Below are positions 2,979 through 20,502 of a stretch of DNA of 20,502 nucleotides, one piece after another. The first letter of the stretch is position 1. Every line of letters begins with the position of its first letter. The notes under the pieces are model-generated. The model had not been told where the DNA came from. It did no database searches and saw only the letters and a program-made list of their open reading frames with translations. The translations under genes were made by a program, and so were the position numbers. Source of the DNA: a virus; IMG/VR virus record IMGVR_UViG_3300001352_000106, positions 1 through 20,502 of that record. One strand, given 5' to 3'.

Positions 2979-4070
2979 ATGGAATTTAAAGTAAAAGAAG
3001 TAAGTCCTTTAGAAGAAAAATCAGTTCAAGAGGTAGAAAAAAATCTTTTAGATAAGCATGAGGAAAAATTAAATGATGAGCAACCAAAAGCTAATAAAGA
3101 ACAAAAAGCTGATGATGAACCAAAATCTAATGAACCTGCAGAAATAAAAGATGAAGACGTTCTTTCATATATTAAAAACAGATATAATAAAGAAATATCA
3201 TCTATTGATGAGTTATTTTCTCAAAGAGAAGTAAATAATGATTTACCAGAGGATGTTTCTAAATATTTAAATTTTAAAAAAGAAACTGGCCGTGGTTTTA
3301 ATGATTTCGTAAAAGCAAATAAAAGTTACGATGATTTAAATGACGACCAAGTGTTAGCAGAATATTATTCTTTAACAGAAGAGGATTTAGATAATGAAGA
3401 TATTCATTATTTAGTTGAATCAAAATTTTCATATGATGAAGATATAGATGATGACTCTGAAATTAAAAAGAAAAGTATAGCTAAAAAAAGAGAACTTTCT
3501 AAGGCAAAAAAGTATCTTAATGATTTTAAAGAAAAATATAGCGTTCCTCTTGAGTCAAGTGGGAAAGCTGTTTCAAATGAAATCCAAGAAGAACTTAATG
3601 CGTATAAAAAGTTTATTCAAGAATCTAAGACTGTTGAAGAAGCTAATAAAAAAAAGAATGAGTATTTTTCAAAGAAAACTAATGAGGTTTTTAATTCAGA
3701 ATTCAAAGGTTTTGAGTTTAAAGTTGGAGACAAAAAAATTGGTTATTCTTATGGAGATGCACAGGAAATGAAAGCAAAACAAATGAATCTAGAAAGCTTC
3801 ATAGGCAAATATGTAGGTGATGACGGATTAATTTCTGATGCTAATGGTTGGCATAAAGCACTAAGTGCGGCAATGGATCCTGAACGTTTTGCTCAATATT
3901 TTTATGAGCAAGGAAAGTCAGATGGTGTGGGTAATATTTCTAAAAAAAGTAAAAACATTAATATGAATGTTAGAAATACACCACAAGTAATTGGCGAGAC
4001 AGGATTTAAAGCTAGGGCTGTTGGTGAAGACAAAGGAAAAGGTTTAAGAATAAAAAGTAAAAATAAATAA
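2979..4070 (+). CDS. Scaffold-like / head-assembly protein
   Basis: This 363-residue protein sits between portal and major capsid protein, where tailed phages usually encode the scaffold or prohead core protein. It is rich in Lys, Glu and Asp. Residues 1-60 look disordered and charged, 60-150 are strongly acidic, and about 155-240 is Lys/Glu-rich and likely coiled coil. The final 100 residues carry a denser segment (LESFIGKYVGDDGLISDANG and the following DPERFAQYFYEQGKSDGVG) and a basic tail ending KGKGLRIKSKNK. An acidic helical body with a basic C-terminal tail is typical of scaffolds, whose tail contacts the capsid protein. I see no protease motif. The start is the first ATG after an A-rich leader without a Shine-Dalgarno motif. 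The role is inferred from composition and position only. Confidence 0.6.
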   Translation: MEFKVKEVSPLEEKSVQEVEKNLLDKHEEKLNDEQPKANKEQKADDEPKSNEPAEIKDEDVLSYIKNRYNKEISSIDELFSQREVNNDLPEDVSKYLNFKKETGRGFNDFVKANKSYDDLNDDQVLAEYYSLTEEDLDNEDIHYLVESKFSYDEDIDDDSEIKKKSIAKKRELSKAKKYLNDFKEKYSVPLESSGKAVSNEIQEELNAYKKFIQESKTVEEANKKKNEYFSKKTNEVFNSEFKGFEFKVGDKKIGYSYGDAQEMKAKQMNLESFIGKYVGDDGLISDANGWHKALSAAMDPERFAQYFYEQGKSDGVGNISKKSKNINMNVRNTPQVIGETGFKARAVGEDKGKGLRIKSKNK

Positions 4071-4090: not shown

Positions 4091-5512
4091 ATGTCAGTAC
4101 AAACGACACCAGGTTTTGACTTGCAACCAAGTTCGGAGCAGGTATTATTACAAACAAATTATATAACTAACTTTGATTTCTTAAATCAGTATCTACCAGA
4201 TACATATGAGAAAGAATTTGAGCGTTATGGAAATAGATCAGTAGCATCATTTTTAAGAATGGTGGGTGCTGAAATGCCTTCTAACTCAGACCTTATCAAA
4301 TGGGCAGAGCAAGGAAGATTACACACTAAGTATACAAATGTTACTTCAGCAGCAGCAGCAGCAGCAGATACTGCTACATTGACTATTGGAGATACTTTAG
4401 CACCTGGAACAGGTACTATAGCTATTCGTGTAGGTCAAACAATTATGTTATCTGACAGCACAGCGGCTTCTACAAATAGCAACAAAGCTATTGTAACAGC
4501 AGTTGATACAGCGGCAGGTACAATTGATGTAGCTTATTACGAAGCAGGAGGACAAACAATGGCGGCAGCAGTTGTATGTTCATTATTCATTTATGGTTCT
4601 GAATTTCAAAAAGGATCTATTGGAATGCAAGGGCAGTTAGAAGCTGATGATTCTATTTTTGAAAACTCTCCAATTATTATTAAAGACCGTTACGCAGTAT
4701 CAGGTTCTGATATGGCTCAGATTGGATGGATTGAAGTAACTACAGAAAATGGTGCAACAGGTTTCTTATGGTATATGAAATCAGAGCATGAAACTAGACT
4801 TCGTTTTGAAGACTATTTAGAAACAGCAATGGTTGAAGCAGTACCTGCAGAAGCAGCATCTGGAGCAGCAGCAATTGTTGAAGGTGTAGCAAGTGGTGTA
4901 GGTAACAAGGGTTCAGAAGGTCTTTTCTATGTTGTAGAGCAAAGAGGAAATGTTTGGGCAGGTGCAAACCCTGATGCATTATCAGATTTTGACGCTATTA
5001 TATCTAGATTAGATAAGCAAGGTTCTATTGAGGAAAATGTTATTTTCTTAAACAGAAACTTTGGTTTTGACATTGACGATATGTTAGCTGCTCAAAACTC
5101 TTATGGTGGTGGTGGTACTTCTTATGGTCTTTTTGACAATGATGAAGAGATGGCTCTTAATTTAGGATTCTCAGGATTCCGTAGAGGTTATGACTTTTAC
5201 AAGACAGACTGGAAATACTTAAATGACCCAACTATGCGTGGTGATATTGTAGGTGGTTCTGTAAATGGAATATTAGTTCCTGCAGGTTCTACTACAGTTT
5301 ATGACCAAGTACTTGGTAAAAACGCTAAGAGACCATTCTTACACGTTCGTTATAGAGCTTCAGAAACTGAAGACAGAAAGTATAAGACTTGGATTACAGG
5401 TTCAGCTGGTGGAGCTGCTACATCGGATTTAGATGCGATGGAAGTGAATTTCTTATCAGAAAGAGCTTTATGTACTTTAGGTGCTAATAACTTCTTTATT
5501 TTCAATAACTAG
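4091..5512 (+). CDS. Major capsid protein (HK97 fold, crAss-like)
   Basis: This 473-residue protein would be the main shell subunit. The N-terminal block LLQTNYITNFDFLNQYLPDT followed by KEFERYGNRSVASFLRMVGA and then EMPSNSDLIKWAEQGRLHTK is strongly reminiscent of crAss-like capsid proteins. Residues 87-92 are six alanines, then about 80 residues of Thr/Ala/Gly-rich beta-type sequence, probably an insertion domain exposed on the capsid surface. The remainder (GIEV-type strands, ENVIFLNRNFGFDIDDM, LNLGFSGFRRGYDFYKTDWK and the C-terminal FLHVRYRASETEDRKYKTW) fits the P- and A-domain core. The gene has higher-GC, more regular codons than its neighbours, as expected for a highly expressed gene. 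It ends in TAG and is followed by a strong terminator. Confidence 0.9.
   Translation: MSVQTTPGFDLQPSSEQVLLQTNYITNFDFLNQYLPDTYEKEFERYGNRSVASFLRMVGAEMPSNSDLIKWAEQGRLHTKYTNVTSAAAAAADTATLTIGDTLAPGTGTIAIRVGQTIMLSDSTAASTNSNKAIVTAVDTAAGTIDVAYYEAGGQTMAAAVVCSLFIYGSEFQKGSIGMQGQLEADDSIFENSPIIIKDRYAVSGSDMAQIGWIEVTTENGATGFLWYMKSEHETRLRFEDYLETAMVEAVPAEAASGAAAIVEGVASGVGNKGSEGLFYVVEQRGNVWAGANPDALSDFDAIISRLDKQGSIEENVIFLNRNFGFDIDDMLAAQNSYGGGGTSYGLFDNDEEMALNLGFSGFRRGYDFYKTDWKYLNDPTMRGDIVGGSVNGILVPAGSTTVYDQVLGKNAKRPFLHVRYRASETEDRKYKTWITGSAGGAATSDLDAMEVNFLSERALCTLGANNFFIFNN
4347..4367 (+). repeat. (CAG)7 trinucleotide microsatellite in the capsid gene
   Basis: Seven perfect CAG units in tandem encode part of Ser86 and a run of six alanines at the start of the presumed capsid insertion domain. 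All alanine codons are GCA, so the tract is repetitive in DNA and not only in protein, and could change length by slippage without breaking the frame. Confidence 0.85.
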
Positions 5513-12495: not shown

Positions 12496-13206
12496 ATGGC
12501 TTCATATGTAAATAGATATACAGATAATTCAGACTTTTTATTGGCTTCGGCTGTATATGATAATCCTGAATTGACTACTCCTTCAGCTGATGGTTTTTAT
12601 CAGAAAAACGGAATTTATAGGCAACAACAAGGAGGGGTATTAATAAACGGTTCTTCAACTTGCCCATCGTGTGCAGGTAACTTTGAGGTATTAAAAGTTA
12701 ATTCTATTTCTGCAAATGAATTATGTTGCGTGAGTAGTAGTAGTTTTACTGCTCATTTTAATACTGGGGATTCTTTTTCAAATCCATCGACTACATTAAT
12801 GTATACAGATGCGGCTTTGTCAAGTCTTTCTCCTGATGGTTGGTATAAAACAAAAATATCTAATCAATATAGACAACAGTCTTCAGGTACTTTAGGTGTC
12901 TTAACATCGTGTCCAACTTGTTCTTCAGGTACTTTTTATATATCTACAAAAAGAACTGTTTGTAGTGATTTTTGCACAGGAAATTATGCAATTACATCAT
13001 CAAAAAACATGAATAGTGGAAACGGTTATAGTAGTATAACTATAAATGACGTTGTTCAAGGTACTTTACTAAGCAATGGATGGTATGCCTATGCTGAAAA
13101 TTATAACACGCAAACTCCTTCAGGAACATTTAAATTAATGAATCTATTAAACAATGTAGTTACTAGTATAGCTCAATGCTCTGCAGGTAGTTGCGTAATT
13201 CAATAA
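12496..13206 (+). CDS. Cys-rich repeat protein, probable tail appendage
   Basis: This 236-residue protein is built from about three repeats. Units at residues 19-60 and 101-142 align well: an aliphatic strand, a P/S-A/P-DGFY or DGWY turn, YRQQ, an SGT or GGV strand, then CPSC or CPTC. A weaker third copy at 181-233 keeps SNGWY, PSGTF and C-x4-C. Ten cysteines are present, including Cys56/59, 77/78, 139/142, 156/160 and 228/233, which suggests metal binding or disulfides. I recall this DGWY...CPxC pattern from tail or surface proteins of Bacteroidota phages, so an adhesin-like or tail-appendage role is my inference. There is no signal peptide. It starts 10 bases after the muzzle gene and in another frame. 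Confidence 0.6.
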   Translation: MASYVNRYTDNSDFLLASAVYDNPELTTPSADGFYQKNGIYRQQQGGVLINGSSTCPSCAGNFEVLKVNSISANELCCVSSSSFTAHFNTGDSFSNPSTTLMYTDAALSSLSPDGWYKTKISNQYRQQSSGTLGVLTSCPTCSSGTFYISTKRTVCSDFCTGNYAITSSKNMNSGNGYSSITINDVVQGTLLSNGWYAYAENYNTQTPSGTFKLMNLLNNVVTSIAQCSAGSCVIQ

Positions 13207-13208
13207 AT

Positions 13209-13964
13209 ATGCCTCAACAAGATTATACGTTAACATATAGTGAATCTGTAAATGGATGGCCATCATTTTACAGCTATGTACCTGATTTTATTCTAGGAAT
13301 GAATCAATATTTATATACTTTTAAAAAAGGAAACTTATATAGACATAATACTAACGATAGAAGAAATAGTTATTATGGTGTTGACTATAATTCTACTATA
13401 ACAGGTGTTTTTAACCAAGAGCCAACAAGTACTAAGGTTTTTAAAACCATTGAGCTTGAAAGCGATGATGCTTGGGATTGTGAGTTGATTTCTGATTTAG
13501 GAACAGGATCTATGCCCGCTTCTTATTTTGTATTAAAAGAGGGTGCTTACTTTGCATTTATAAGAAGAGTCGCAGGCTCTGAAGACTTAGCGTTAAGGTC
13601 AGCACAAGGTATAGGTACTTTTGCATCCACTACAGGTTCAGGGCCAGCAGCAATTACATTGACTTTTAGTTTTGTGATTGGTTCTATACTTAGTATTGGA
13701 GATACTGCTTACTATAACAACGCAGGAGTTATTGTAGAAATAGGAGAGATAACATCTGTTAGTACTGATAATAAAACCATTACAATATTGAATCCTGTAA
13801 TTACCGGAGCAGTTCCTTCTAGTTTTATTTTGTTTGTAAAAAACAGCGTTGCAGAGTCTTATGGTACTCTAGGTTATTTCCTTCAGTTCAAATTAACAAA
13901 TTCAAACACTCAATCCGTAGAGCTTTTTACAGTTGACTCGGACGTATTTAAAAGTAATCCTTAG
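13209..13964 (+). CDS. Tail-associated structural protein, function unknown
   Basis: I place the start at the ATG at 13209, two bases after the preceding stop, giving 251 residues; a TTG at 13191 would add six residues and overlap the upstream gene. The N-terminal region is distinctive: NGWPSFYSYVPDFILGMNQY, then LYTFKKGNLYRHNTNDRRNS. I recall this SFYSY...PD...N..(L/F)YTFK.GNLYRHN signature from structural proteins of Bacteroidota phages, often next to tail genes, without a firm function. Residues 130-215 are Gly/Ser/Thr/Ile-rich beta-strand sequence (SIGDTAYYNNAGVIVEIGEI). It ends in TAG, eight bases before a promoter-like box. It is probably part of the tail tip or fibre attachment, by position only. 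Confidence 0.55.
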   Translation: MPQQDYTLTYSESVNGWPSFYSYVPDFILGMNQYLYTFKKGNLYRHNTNDRRNSYYGVDYNSTITGVFNQEPTSTKVFKTIELESDDAWDCELISDLGTGSMPASYFVLKEGAYFAFIRRVAGSEDLALRSAQGIGTFASTTGSGPAAITLTFSFVIGSILSIGDTAYYNNAGVIVEIGEITSVSTDNKTITILNPVITGAVPSSFILFVKNSVAESYGTLGYFLQFKLTNSNTQSVELFTVDSDVFKSNP

Positions 13965-17161: not shown

Positions 17162-20100
17162 ATGGATCAAGAGGTATTACAAGATTTATACGATAGAGCT
17201 AAATCAAAGGGGTATAGCAAATCTATAGAGGAATTTCAGCAACTGATATCTTCGGATAATGAGGTTTTAAATGATAACTTTGAGTATGTCAAATCAAAAG
17301 GATATGCAAAAGATATATCTGATTTTTCTGTATTAGTAGGATTCGGTGAAAAAAAAAATCAAGTCGTTACTCCTTCAGATGTAGTAGAGGATGTTATGGA
17401 ATCCACTACAGAAACGGAAATAACTCCTGGCTCCTTGGATTCTTCAGGTCAGCCTCCAATTGAAATACCTATTGTTGAGGAAGAGGAAGAAATTGTGTTT
17501 GATGAAACAACTCCTGAAAATAAAGAGCTTTTAATAAAAAATCAATCTAATATTGATTTATTAAATTCAGTAGGATATATTGAAGCTAATGAGGGTATTG
17601 AGTCTGTAATTAGTTCTGAAGGACTTACTAATTTTGATAAAGAACGATTAGAAAGCAAAGAAAAATCCTATAGGCTTAAAAATAATAAAACAGGTGAATT
17701 TGAGTATAAAAAAGAATCTGAAATAAATCCTGATGTTTTAAAGGCTATAAAAATATACAAAACTTCAAAAGATAATTCTTACACACCAAACTATTTAGAT
17801 GTTCAGGTAGATATTAAAGACTTTGAAAGAGATGATGTGCCTGATGCAAGTAAACTAGATTTATTAGGAATTAATCAAGAAGATTATTTAAAGTGGGATA
17901 AAGTAAACACAAGACAAGAAGGTTCTGTGTTTAAGTTTATGAAAAACATTTTACTTGATGATGAATATAGTGATTTTGAAAAAGAACAAAGACAGTATGA
18001 AAAACTTCAATCATACCAAGCAACTCAATTAAATGGTATAACTAATGACTTGGAAAAAAATCAAGCATTACAAAAACTAACTTCGGATTCTAAGCAGATT
18101 AAAGTATTAAAGAAAGAAGAGAAAGAGCTTCAGAAAAAATTCTATGACAAGGTTGGGGTAATGAGCAAATCAATAGATTTGTTTCCTAAGTTTAAAGATG
18201 CTACTGTAGATACAGAATTAGAAAAAAGAAAAAGACTTTATTATGCTGTAAAAGAAGGAGGTTCAAGTGAGGCTAGTCAAGGAACTATAGAGTTATTAAG
18301 AACAGGAGGAACAGCTATTGTTGATTTTACAACGAACGTTCTTGGTGGTGTGCCAGGGTTTTTAGACCAAAGATTGACAACTTTAGGATATGACAAGAAA
18401 GGGTTTCTTGCAGGATTGAGTGATATGTTTACTGACTCATCTGAACACGTTGACTTAGCTTACGGTGGAGTTAAACGTTCAGGTTTTATGTCTGGTAAAC
18501 CTGTTACATATAGAGGTCAACAATACTTTGTCGATAAAAACGGAAAGGTCTATGATGAAGAGACAAATATATTAATGGATGGGATTGTACCTTTATCAGA
18601 CATAAAAGAAATACAAAAACGATCTAAAGATGTCCCTGACGCAGAAACCATGTGGACTGGGGGTTCTGTTGTTTCAGGAGGTGTAAGCACGTTAGTTAAC
18701 TTGTTTGGATTAATAAGAACAGGTGGCAAAGTAAACAATGCATTAGGATTAAAAAAATACATGAAGACTGGCACAGCAGGTAAAGTAGCAATGGGCCTTA
18801 CTTCCTTTACAAGTGGAGTTGTTGACAATGTTGATGATATTAGGTCTCAGTTAATTGCCACAGGAATGAGTGAGAAGGAAGCTATGAATATAGCTGTTAA
18901 TGCAGGTCAAGCAATATCTACTTTAGATGGTGTATTTTCTGGATTAGCAGGTAGCAACGAAAAACTTTTAACAGGATTAACAGGAATTAAAAATCAAATA
19001 AAAAACCTAGCAATTAGCAAAGGAAAAAACTTTACTGCTAAAGAGTTTAAAACAAAAAGCTTTGAGCTGATAAAAGAAAATGCAAAAGAATTGTTTGTAG
19101 AAGAACTTCCTGTATTATTTTCTGAAAAAGGAATAAACTATCTAGTAAACAGAAGTATAGGTCAAAATGTATTAGACTCTAAAATAACAAAAGAAAACAT
19201 AATAGAGACTGCTGTAATGACTATTGGAGCAACTACTACTTTGGGTGGTAGAAAGTTATTATCAGGAAATAGAAGATCAGATTTAGTTAGAACTATAGCA
19301 GAAGATATAGGTGACTTACAAGGAACTTTAGATGTTTTAGTTAAAGAAGGTTCACTGACTAATAAAGAGTCTTCTAATGCGTATACTGAGATATACAGCA
19401 TGCAAACAGCAGAAAACCTAACAAAAGGCACTATACTTGTTTCTGAAAACATGGAGACTGCTTCAGACTTGCTAATTCAAAGACAAAACTTAATTAATAG
19501 TAAGGAAGGATTAGAAGGCCCTGGTAAACAAAATATAGATAATAAAATAGCTGATGTAGACGCACAGTTAGATGCCCTTTACGCAAGAGATAAGGAACAA
19601 GCTAAAGCTATTGTTGATGGAGAGCAAGATGGTGAGGTTAAAATAGAGGTTACTAAAGAAGAGGCATTAGAATCTTTAAAGTCTGAAAACGAAGTTAGAA
19701 AAAAAGCAGGTTTACCTGTGGTATTAGAGTCTGATGAAAATATATTAAAACAACAAGAACAATTACTAAAAGAAAAACAAGATGCCATTTCAAAGTCAAG
19801 CACAGAGAAGCAAGTGCTACCAGATGCTTCAACAAGCAAAGAAGAGGGGGGAGACTCCAAAGTGGGACTGCAGCAAGTGGGAGAAGGAGACACTCAGCAA
19901 GTCACTACCGACACGAAAGTCGAAAAAGGTGACACGAAAACCGACCAAGCTAGCGACACGACTACGGAGACAGATACTGAACAGTTAGACTTATCAAGGA
20001 CTCTTAAAGAACCTCAGAAACTACCTAAAACACCAAAACAAACAAAAAATGAAAATGGTGTTATTACAAGTGGTAAAGTTCATTTATACCACTCAACTAA

Positions 20101-20502
20101 TGGTATAGAAAACTTAAATAATATTTTAGAGAACGGAATAGACTTTGAAAAACAAAAAGCAGTTGGTGGATTGTTTTTTTCTAAATTAGGTAGCCCATAT
20201 AGACAAGGAGATTCTTTTGTTGTAATAGAAACAGATGTAGAAAACATACCTTTTAATCAAAGAACAGAAGGTCAAGAGGTAGCTTTAGGGCAGCTTTCTG
20301 ATTATAAGATAGTACATAGTTCAAAGATGAGTCCTAAAGAGTTAGAAACACTGTCAGCACTTGAAATGATTTTAAATAGAAAAACAAATGGTGGTATTGA
20401 TGGATACAATAAATCTTTAGAGAATTATAAAAAAAGAAACAAGAATAGTGAGCTAATTAAGTATCTTGAATCTCAACCTACCTCAACAGAGGAAGGTATG
20501 AG
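17162..20502 (+). CDS. Giant multidomain ejected (polyvalent-type) protein, 3' end missing
   Basis: From ATG 17162 the frame stays open to the window end, giving at least 1113 residues; the gene is 3'-truncated by the window. Residues 2-57 are two similar units (LYDRAKSKGYSKSIEEFQQL and EYVKSKGYAKDISDFSVLVG). Residues 80-125 are an acidic linker. Gly-rich apolar segments at about 380-400, 500-525, 542-555 and 680-695 could insert in a membrane, as T7 gp16 does. Residues 720-875 are helical and charged. Residues 874-943 are low-complexity Thr/Asp/Ser/Gln linker that overlaps another gene. From about 970, HLYHSTNGIENLNNILENGI, then GGLFFS and RTEGQEVALGQLSDYKIVHS, resembles a small ADP-ribosyltransferase-like domain (His977 and a Glu near 1036-1039 as candidate site residues). 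It fits proteins injected with the DNA to act on the host; domain assignment is inference. Confidence 0.75.
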   Translation, partial: MDQEVLQDLYDRAKSKGYSKSIEEFQQLISSDNEVLNDNFEYVKSKGYAKDISDFSVLVGFGEKKNQVVTPSDVVEDVMESTTETEITPGSLDSSGQPPIEIPIVEEEEEIVFDETTPENKELLIKNQSNIDLLNSVGYIEANEGIESVISSEGLTNFDKERLESKEKSYRLKNNKTGEFEYKKESEINPDVLKAIKIYKTSKDNSYTPNYLDVQVDIKDFERDDVPDASKLDLLGINQEDYLKWDKVNTRQEGSVFKFMKNILLDDEYSDFEKEQRQYEKLQSYQATQLNGITNDLEKNQALQKLTSDSKQIKVLKKEEKELQKKFYDKVGVMSKSIDLFPKFKDATVDTELEKRKRLYYAVKEGGSSEASQGTIELLRTGGTAIVDFTTNVLGGVPGFLDQRLTTLGYDKKGFLAGLSDMFTDSSEHVDLAYGGVKRSGFMSGKPVTYRGQQYFVDKNGKVYDEETNILMDGIVPLSDIKEIQKRSKDVPDAETMWTGGSVVSGGVSTLVNLFGLIRTGGKVNNALGLKKYMKTGTAGKVAMGLTSFTSGVVDNVDDIRSQLIATGMSEKEAMNIAVNAGQAISTLDGVFSGLAGSNEKLLTGLTGIKNQIKNLAISKGKNFTAKEFKTKSFELIKENAKELFVEELPVLFSEKGINYLVNRSIGQNVLDSKITKENIIETAVMTIGATTTLGGRKLLSGNRRSDLVRTIAEDIGDLQGTLDVLVKEGSLTNKESSNAYTEIYSMQTAENLTKGTILVSENMETASDLLIQRQNLINSKEGLEGPGKQNIDNKIADVDAQLDALYARDKEQAKAIVDGEQDGEVKIEVTKEEALESLKSENEVRKKAGLPVVLESDENILKQQEQLLKEKQDAISKSSTEKQVLPDASTSKEEGGDSKVGLQQVGEGDTQQVTTDTKVEKGDTKTDQASDTTTETDTEQLDLSRTLKEPQKLPKTPKQTKNENGVITSGKVHLYHSTNGIENLNNILENGIDFEKQKAVGGLFFSKLGSPYRQGDSFVVIETDVENIPFNQRTEGQEVALGQLSDYKIVHSSKMSPKELETLSALEMILNRKTNGGIDGYNKSLENYKKRNKNSELIKYLESQPTSTEEGM
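19782..19988 (+). CDS. Overprinted small conserved phage protein inside the giant gene
   Basis: A 68-codon ORF lies wholly within the giant ejected-protein gene in the +1 frame. Its product begins MPFQSQAQRSKCYQMLQQAK and continues with PKWDCSKWEKET (residues 26-37), ending in a basic Lys/Arg tail. The MPFxSxAQRxxCYxM start and WDCxxW core look like a family of small uncharacterised phage proteins I know from many tailed phages, where it is a stand-alone gene. Hand-counted GC is 102 of 207 bases (49%), against 27-35% in nearby 60-base lines, and third codon positions are unusually rich in G. The enclosing frame here is low-complexity linker, as expected when the other frame carries the constraint. 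The start context is A-rich like the other genes. It ends in TAG. Function unknown; Cys12, Cys30 and the tryptophans could matter for fold or metal binding. Confidence 0.72.
   Translation: MPFQSQAQRSKCYQMLQQAKKRGETPKWDCSKWEKETLSKSLPTRKSKKVTRKPTKLATRLRRQILNS

Follow-up and report, generated by a model that had tools for sequence, protein, structure and literature searches.

A giant virion-type gene at the end of a 20.5 kb virus record (IMGVR_UViG_3300001352_000106; its 20,502 nucleotides are referred to as the window) encloses an open reading frame for 68 amino acids in its +1 frame. The question raised by this locus is whether the smaller frame is a gene of its own and, if so, which of the two frames is the older one. 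Our preferred explanation, to which we assign a probability of about 0.88, is that an old and independent family of small proteins is encoded out of frame in the linkers of virion genes, with an internal start, and forms a cassette that changes its location.

Genomic context of the nested frame

The window was identified as a fragment of a crAss-like phage, since besides a portal protein and a protein in the position of the capsid protein it encodes further virion proteins and the muzzle domain typical of crAss phages. The assignment as crAss-like is based on the muzzle domain and on the order portal-head-MCP-ring-muzzle-cargo, and the same gene order was found in the cultured Flavobacterium phage Elemovirus. 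The features of the window described here are all located on the plus strand. The gene for the portal protein (490–2925, phrog_6547), which served as marker for the tree of phage relationships, is followed by that of a 363-aa head protein (2979–4070), homologous to the gene that serves as the alternative house in sister phages, and by that of the virion protein in the major capsid position (4091–5512, phrog_13704). The muzzle C-terminal domain is encoded at 13191–13964 (PF25729, E = 1e-14).

The giant gene, which is the house of the nested gene, starts at 17162 and is still open at the window end (>20502), so that 1113 codons are visible; its product in relatives is 2000–3700 aa long. The giant protein of the window yielded no Pfam match above the cut-off. 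Past the linker, at 20070–20340, the giant frame (LYHSTNGIENLNNILENGI...GGLFFSK) encodes what by eye resembles an ADP-ribosyltransferase-type polyvalent domain. Gene order, protein size and the analogy to the cargo proteins of crAss001 suggest that the giant protein is ejected. These cargo proteins are large, their genes follow the one for the muzzle, and the virion stores and extrudes them (PMC10172136). The giant gene of the window has a similar place, and the passages of that study consulted here describe no nested gene.

The nested gene (19782–19988, stop included) has its own ATG and stop, in the +1 frame relative to the giant ORF as previously reported, and encodes a Lys/Arg-rich protein with a net charge of +15 (MPFQSQAQRSKCYQMLQQAKKRGETPKWDCSKWEKETLSKSLPTRKSKKVTRKPTKLATRLRRQILNS). 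It is preceded by an A-rich, G-poor leader (19761–19781) with an in-frame TAA at 19767–19769. Over the same bases (19781–19987) the giant frame, probably the younger of the two, encodes a linker with a net charge of −9 (DAISKSSTEKQVLPDASTSKEEGGDSKVGLQQVGEGDTQQVTTDTK...). Of the 69 codons of this linker, 13 are for T, 9 for D, 7 for S and 7 for Q, in agreement with the earlier description as low-complexity Thr/Asp/Ser/Gln sequence. The G + C content, said to be about 49% with a fall at the edges, is 49.3% across the ORF compared to 32.7% and 30.3% in flanks of 300 bases. This rise is general: in 185 of 196 loci, the G + C content of the cassette is higher than that of either flank. The length of the ORF is weak evidence by itself (P 0.01–0.09 overall): an equally long +1 ORF anywhere in the giant gene was obtained with P = 0.012 in codon shuffles and P = 0.07 in synonymous shuffles. 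As its length in a single sequence is possibly due to chance, the status as a gene has to be decided by homologues.

Homologues and their distribution

The profile search proposed in the first-pass annotation found no curated family for the 68-aa product, with nothing significant in Pfam, PHROGs, NCBIfam or PDB sequences. Homologues were obtained by tblastn and by scans of viral contigs. The family consists of small basic proteins of 40–70 aa with the pattern MPFKSxAQ...W..ET..LP. The signatures MPFxSQAQR...CY and WDCxxW, noticed earlier in the single sequence, proved to be real, with M1, P2, F3 and Q8 being invariant in 74 sequences.

A first scan of viral contigs yielded 64 loci, and the nested relatives number more than 200 in all, about 100 of them distinct. 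Both frames are open over the whole inner gene, and this is conserved across the more than 200 loci. Nearly all nested copies begin with ATG and end at a stop of their own, and their house ORF is offset by one base, with the same direction of the shift throughout; the house frame is interrupted in L130/L201 (one contig). Among annotated phages, good E-values in tblastn were limited to Elemovirus and one related podovirus record. Elemovirus features an unannotated 42-aa ORF in the same relative frame within the gene of a 3694-aa 'structural protein'. In the 68 Elemovirus records that matched, the enclosing structural protein is the sole annotation at the nested site, which agrees with the earlier expectation that standard annotation discards such a gene. 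Recurrence in a cultured phage genus argues against an artefact of fragmentary or chimeric metagenomic contigs.

The small gene is also present in GC-rich phages (55–62%), in giant genes with helicase domains, and the giant genes of further relatives house subtypes without Cys. One contig of a GC-rich phage (G021, L049:5001) has the small domain as a fusion, located near the N-terminus of an 816-aa open frame. Each of 40 records contains one full copy. In G029, G028 and G027, truncated copies of 13–25 aa that retain the leader (L396, L397 and L398, at 1501) were observed in the giant gene that also houses the full copy, which follows several hundred bases downstream; they are possibly scars left by a duplication or a replacement. 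A recognisable copy is present in 16 of the 24 records that have a related capsid gene. The other eight, some of them fragments and one 62.8 kb in length, lack such a copy, so the gene is dispensable there, replaced or too diverged. No match to the small gene was found in plasmids.

Stand-alone homologues were found at L073, L090/92/93, L121, L145, L192 and L395 as well as in bacterial MAGs, in line with the proposal of the first-pass annotation that a normally independent gene is kept in the linker without breaking the larger frame. A gene overprinted de novo would lack such homologues outside the overlap. The free copies, which occur in unrelated phages, often lie in the packaging module, in the orders TerL-small-portal (L093), TerS-small-TerL (L192) and small-TerS-TerL (L073), or near the portal gene (L145); TerS in L192 and L073 was called by gene order, with no family matched. 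At L192:1700, the gene in the TerS position and the free gene have 29 bases in common at the end of the former, in the +1 relation also seen for the nested copies, which is possibly an intermediate stage. Chromosomal small genes are found in MAGs of Acidobacteriota, Chloroflexota and Gemmatimonadota, not beside terminase or portal genes. The motif MPFKSQAQRRKFAxLLVxGxIS...EEWNRxTG..LPER occurs free-standing in the MAG contigs L140–L144, L146–L149, L151–L169, L172 and L173. Fold comparison gave matches to giant viruses (best E = 1.1e-3, 39% identity), which possibly carry the family as well.

Selection on the two frames

A comparison of both frames across relatives had been suggested, and the substitutions were found to fit the small frame and not that of the giant gene. 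For pairs diverged by 2–25%, the pN/pS values of the small frame were 0.29, 0.22, 0.20 and 0.25 in four groups, and those of the house frame in the shared stretch were 1.51, 1.55, 1.49 and 1.01; in overlapping frames such values are indicative only. Differences in the overlap follow the codon rhythm of the small frame (position 3 > 1 > 2), while those in the flanks peak at house position 3 instead. In disjoint nearest pairs the peak at small-frame position 3 holds (p = 3e-5 to 8e-30); codon-position tests of this kind are biased by the overlap, and the direction observed is inexplicable by selection on the house frame alone. These values indicate purifying selection on the small frame and none on the giant's frame within the overlap.

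Nevertheless, stops are avoided in the house frame. When the small proteins were recoded according to the codon usage of the respective phage, the house frame was open by chance in 0.02% of trials for the window, in at most 0.5% for AT-rich phages and in 0.4–2% for phages with a GC of 43–60%. Stops in the house-equivalent frame were found in each of the 11 stand-alone genes tested. Internal ATG-A codons close the other frame in many members and may partly force the common relative frame.

The first-pass annotation had considered that related phages might have stops in the +1 frame under a conserved linker; in nearly all relatives the small frame and its ATG are open. The small frame was found to be decayed, with the linker intact, in one relative only (G051, locus L393), whose capsid protein is 89% identical to that of the window (L307). 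At about 1420–1640 on the minus strand of L393, the nested gene has lost its start region and has a TGA at the second Cys, and yet the linker frame remains open. This decayed copy is a fossil of the overlap.

Start context and age of the frames

A consensus of the leader was derived from 107 distinct nested ATGs of AT-rich phages. Upstream of the ATG, A is found at positions −13 (93%), −12 (87%), −11 (88%), −8 (83%), −6 (85%), −3 (71%) and −2 (86%), compared to 29–52% for +1-frame ATGs elsewhere in the same genes. With a folding energy of −1.3 kcal/mol, versus −5.2 kcal/mol in these controls, the leader is nearly unstructured. An in-frame stop is located at most 15 codons upstream of the nested ATG in 102 of the 107 cases. 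Ribosome profiling of Flavobacterium johnsoniae identified A at −3, −6, −12 and −13 as positive determinants of initiation (PMC6847099). Judged by sequence, the nested start is of this Bacteroidota type, with A at −3/−6/−12/−13, low structure and no Shine-Dalgarno motif. The match of the leader, together with the upstream stops, makes internal initiation the best-supported route, and not frameshifting; the small protein is probably translated from the nested ATG.

According to the phylogenetic criterion for overlaps, the frame with the wider distribution is the ancestral one (PMC8227390), and by this criterion the small frame is ancestral. Selection on the small frame, the leader and the stand-alone homologues likewise suggest that the small gene is older and the Thr/Asp/Gln-rich linker its by-product. 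That the linker appears to be the younger frame had been missed by the first-pass annotation. Disorder has been reported for frames shifted in the direction of the linker (PMC8227390).

House genes and changes of location

House proteins were clustered with the overlap masked, which resulted in two large classes: the giant genes and a protein of about 400 aa, encoded in L101 between the portal and capsid genes. The small gene thus has a second, unrelated house gene, which goes beyond what had been claimed before. In the lineage of the window the nesting is in the giant gene, in the sister lineage in the gene for the ~400-aa protein between portal and capsid. The product of 2979–4070 of the window and the 379-aa house protein of L101 share 36% identity (E = 5e-50), and the portal proteins are 50% identical. 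This head gene is empty in the window, the single small-gene match of the record being the copy at 19782–19988.

In the portal tree, all 19 head-nested phages form one clade (support 100/100), and the giant-nested phages, the distant Elemovirus among them, fall outside of it. L121/G004, with a free-standing gene directly after the giant gene, clusters inside the giant group; the ends of its giant are common with that of its sister and the cassette is absent. In the giant-nested clade, free small genes directly 3' of a giant gene without a nested copy were observed at L121:5001–5174 and in L297.

In their first 36 codons, nested copies from the two sites are up to 90.7% identical at the nucleotide level, with adjacent flanks that are about 40% alike. 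In one and the same head gene (L044:3307 and L064:3253) the flanks are 88–91% identical and the cassettes 71%, and the nested genes belong to different subtypes, with and without Cys; this is a subtype swap in place. The house gene at L128:2873–6025 (1051+ aa), which carries a nested gene at about codon 710, showed no similarity to other houses and no Pfam match. As both frames of the cassette are open, it can move between unrelated houses without breaking the house protein; the direction of this movement is one that we infer. We see an even chance that it is a two-frame cassette with its own leader, insertable in the disordered linker of any expressed virion gene, which phages move, swap and lose.

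In the proposed mechanism, ribosomes on the late structural mRNA would read the giant frame straight through, while others would start at the nested ATG by means of the A-rich, unstructured leader of the Bacteroidota type and produce a separate small protein. The small frame would set the bases, and the giant frame would only need to stay stop-free, resulting in an acidic, disordered linker. The cassette would have moved between unrelated houses (giant gene and head gene), been exchanged between subtypes and been freed as a separate gene, and it would have been lost at least once, leaving the linker as a fossil.

Putative role of the small protein

The predicted structure of the small protein consists of three helices (mean pLDDT 87, pTM 0.54). 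A fold search in the PDB was uninformative (best match E = 9.9), and a literature search for the peptide motif gave no match. Based on the gene neighbourhood, our best guess is a tentative one, namely that the protein may assist in assembling the head or packaging the DNA; a function in regulation or in the interaction with the host is about as likely.

Alternative explanations

If the conserved element were the linker peptide in the giant frame and the +1 ORF its shadow, the motif [DN]A[VI]QEQSTxESVLxxExSxVGLQEVGEGN, which recurs in many house proteins, and the open linker over the broken small frame of G051 would be accounted for. We nevertheless consider this highly improbable given the substitution pattern, linker-frame pN/pS values of at least 1, stand-alone homologues with stops in the linker frame and the conserved leader with its upstream stops. 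A ribosomal frameshift from the giant frame, yielding a truncated giant protein with a basic tail, would fit a product in +1, and some late phage genes do use frameshifting. It is equally improbable here, as the ATG is invariant, in-frame stops precede it within 15 codons in 102 of 107 cases, the leader suits initiation and the stand-alone genes begin at the same ATG.

The relocation of a two-frame cassette competes with several independent nestings in giant and head genes, which we regard as possible, if somewhat doubtful. Each of the two groups, head-nested and giant-nested, is old and for the most part distinct from the other, the mean codon agreement across sites (0.60) is lower than within sites (0.71–0.74), and the protein sequence itself restricts which frame can stay open. 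However, the best cross-site pairs, with 90.7% nucleotide identity and 79% codon agreement, are as similar as same-site pairs, and the frame is always the same, including cases in which the other frame could more easily be kept open (L069, L074, L091, L081). With regard to function, it is quite conceivable that the small protein is a regulator, a host-takeover or a counter-defence protein favoured by late or virion-linked expression, instead of a packaging accessory. Variable location, subtype swaps and absence from some relatives fit any accessory role, as does the presence in bacterial chromosomes and possibly giant viruses. Some houses have helicase domains, as polyvalent proteins do (PMC5512222), which is in favour of such a role; the clustering of free phage copies with terminase and portal genes speaks against it.

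Comparison with known systems and implications

The embedded sgl lysis genes of ssRNA phages are likewise small genes located fully inside a larger phage gene in another frame, at sites that differ among related phages and with remnants of lost copies (PMC7693330). In contrast to the locus described here, they originated de novo and have no sequence similarity to one another, whereas here one recognisable family with free-standing members occupies several nested sites in virion-protein linkers of dsDNA tailed phages. Classical viral overprinting also features two proteins per stretch, one disordered frame and relaxed constraint on one of them (PMC8227390). There, the outer gene is usually ancestral and the inner one new and taxonomically restricted, whereas in the present case it is the inner gene that is more widely distributed, and the linker around it is the younger frame. 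Some houses resemble polyvalent proteins in being giant multidomain phage proteins, with helicase domains in GC-rich houses only; a term search of the text of the polyvalent-protein paper (PMC5512222) showed that overlapping genes are not mentioned there.

The usual explanation of nested genes is that a new gene is born inside an old one, while in this case the inner gene would be the old one and change its house. Overlaps and disordered linkers could come about in this way, and the reading is testable because Elemovirus isolates with their host exist. If the cassette reading is true, linkers in other phage proteins may be cassette fossils. The nested gene, which annotation pipelines drop, can serve as a marker for a hidden but common family of small proteins in crAss-like and other phages.
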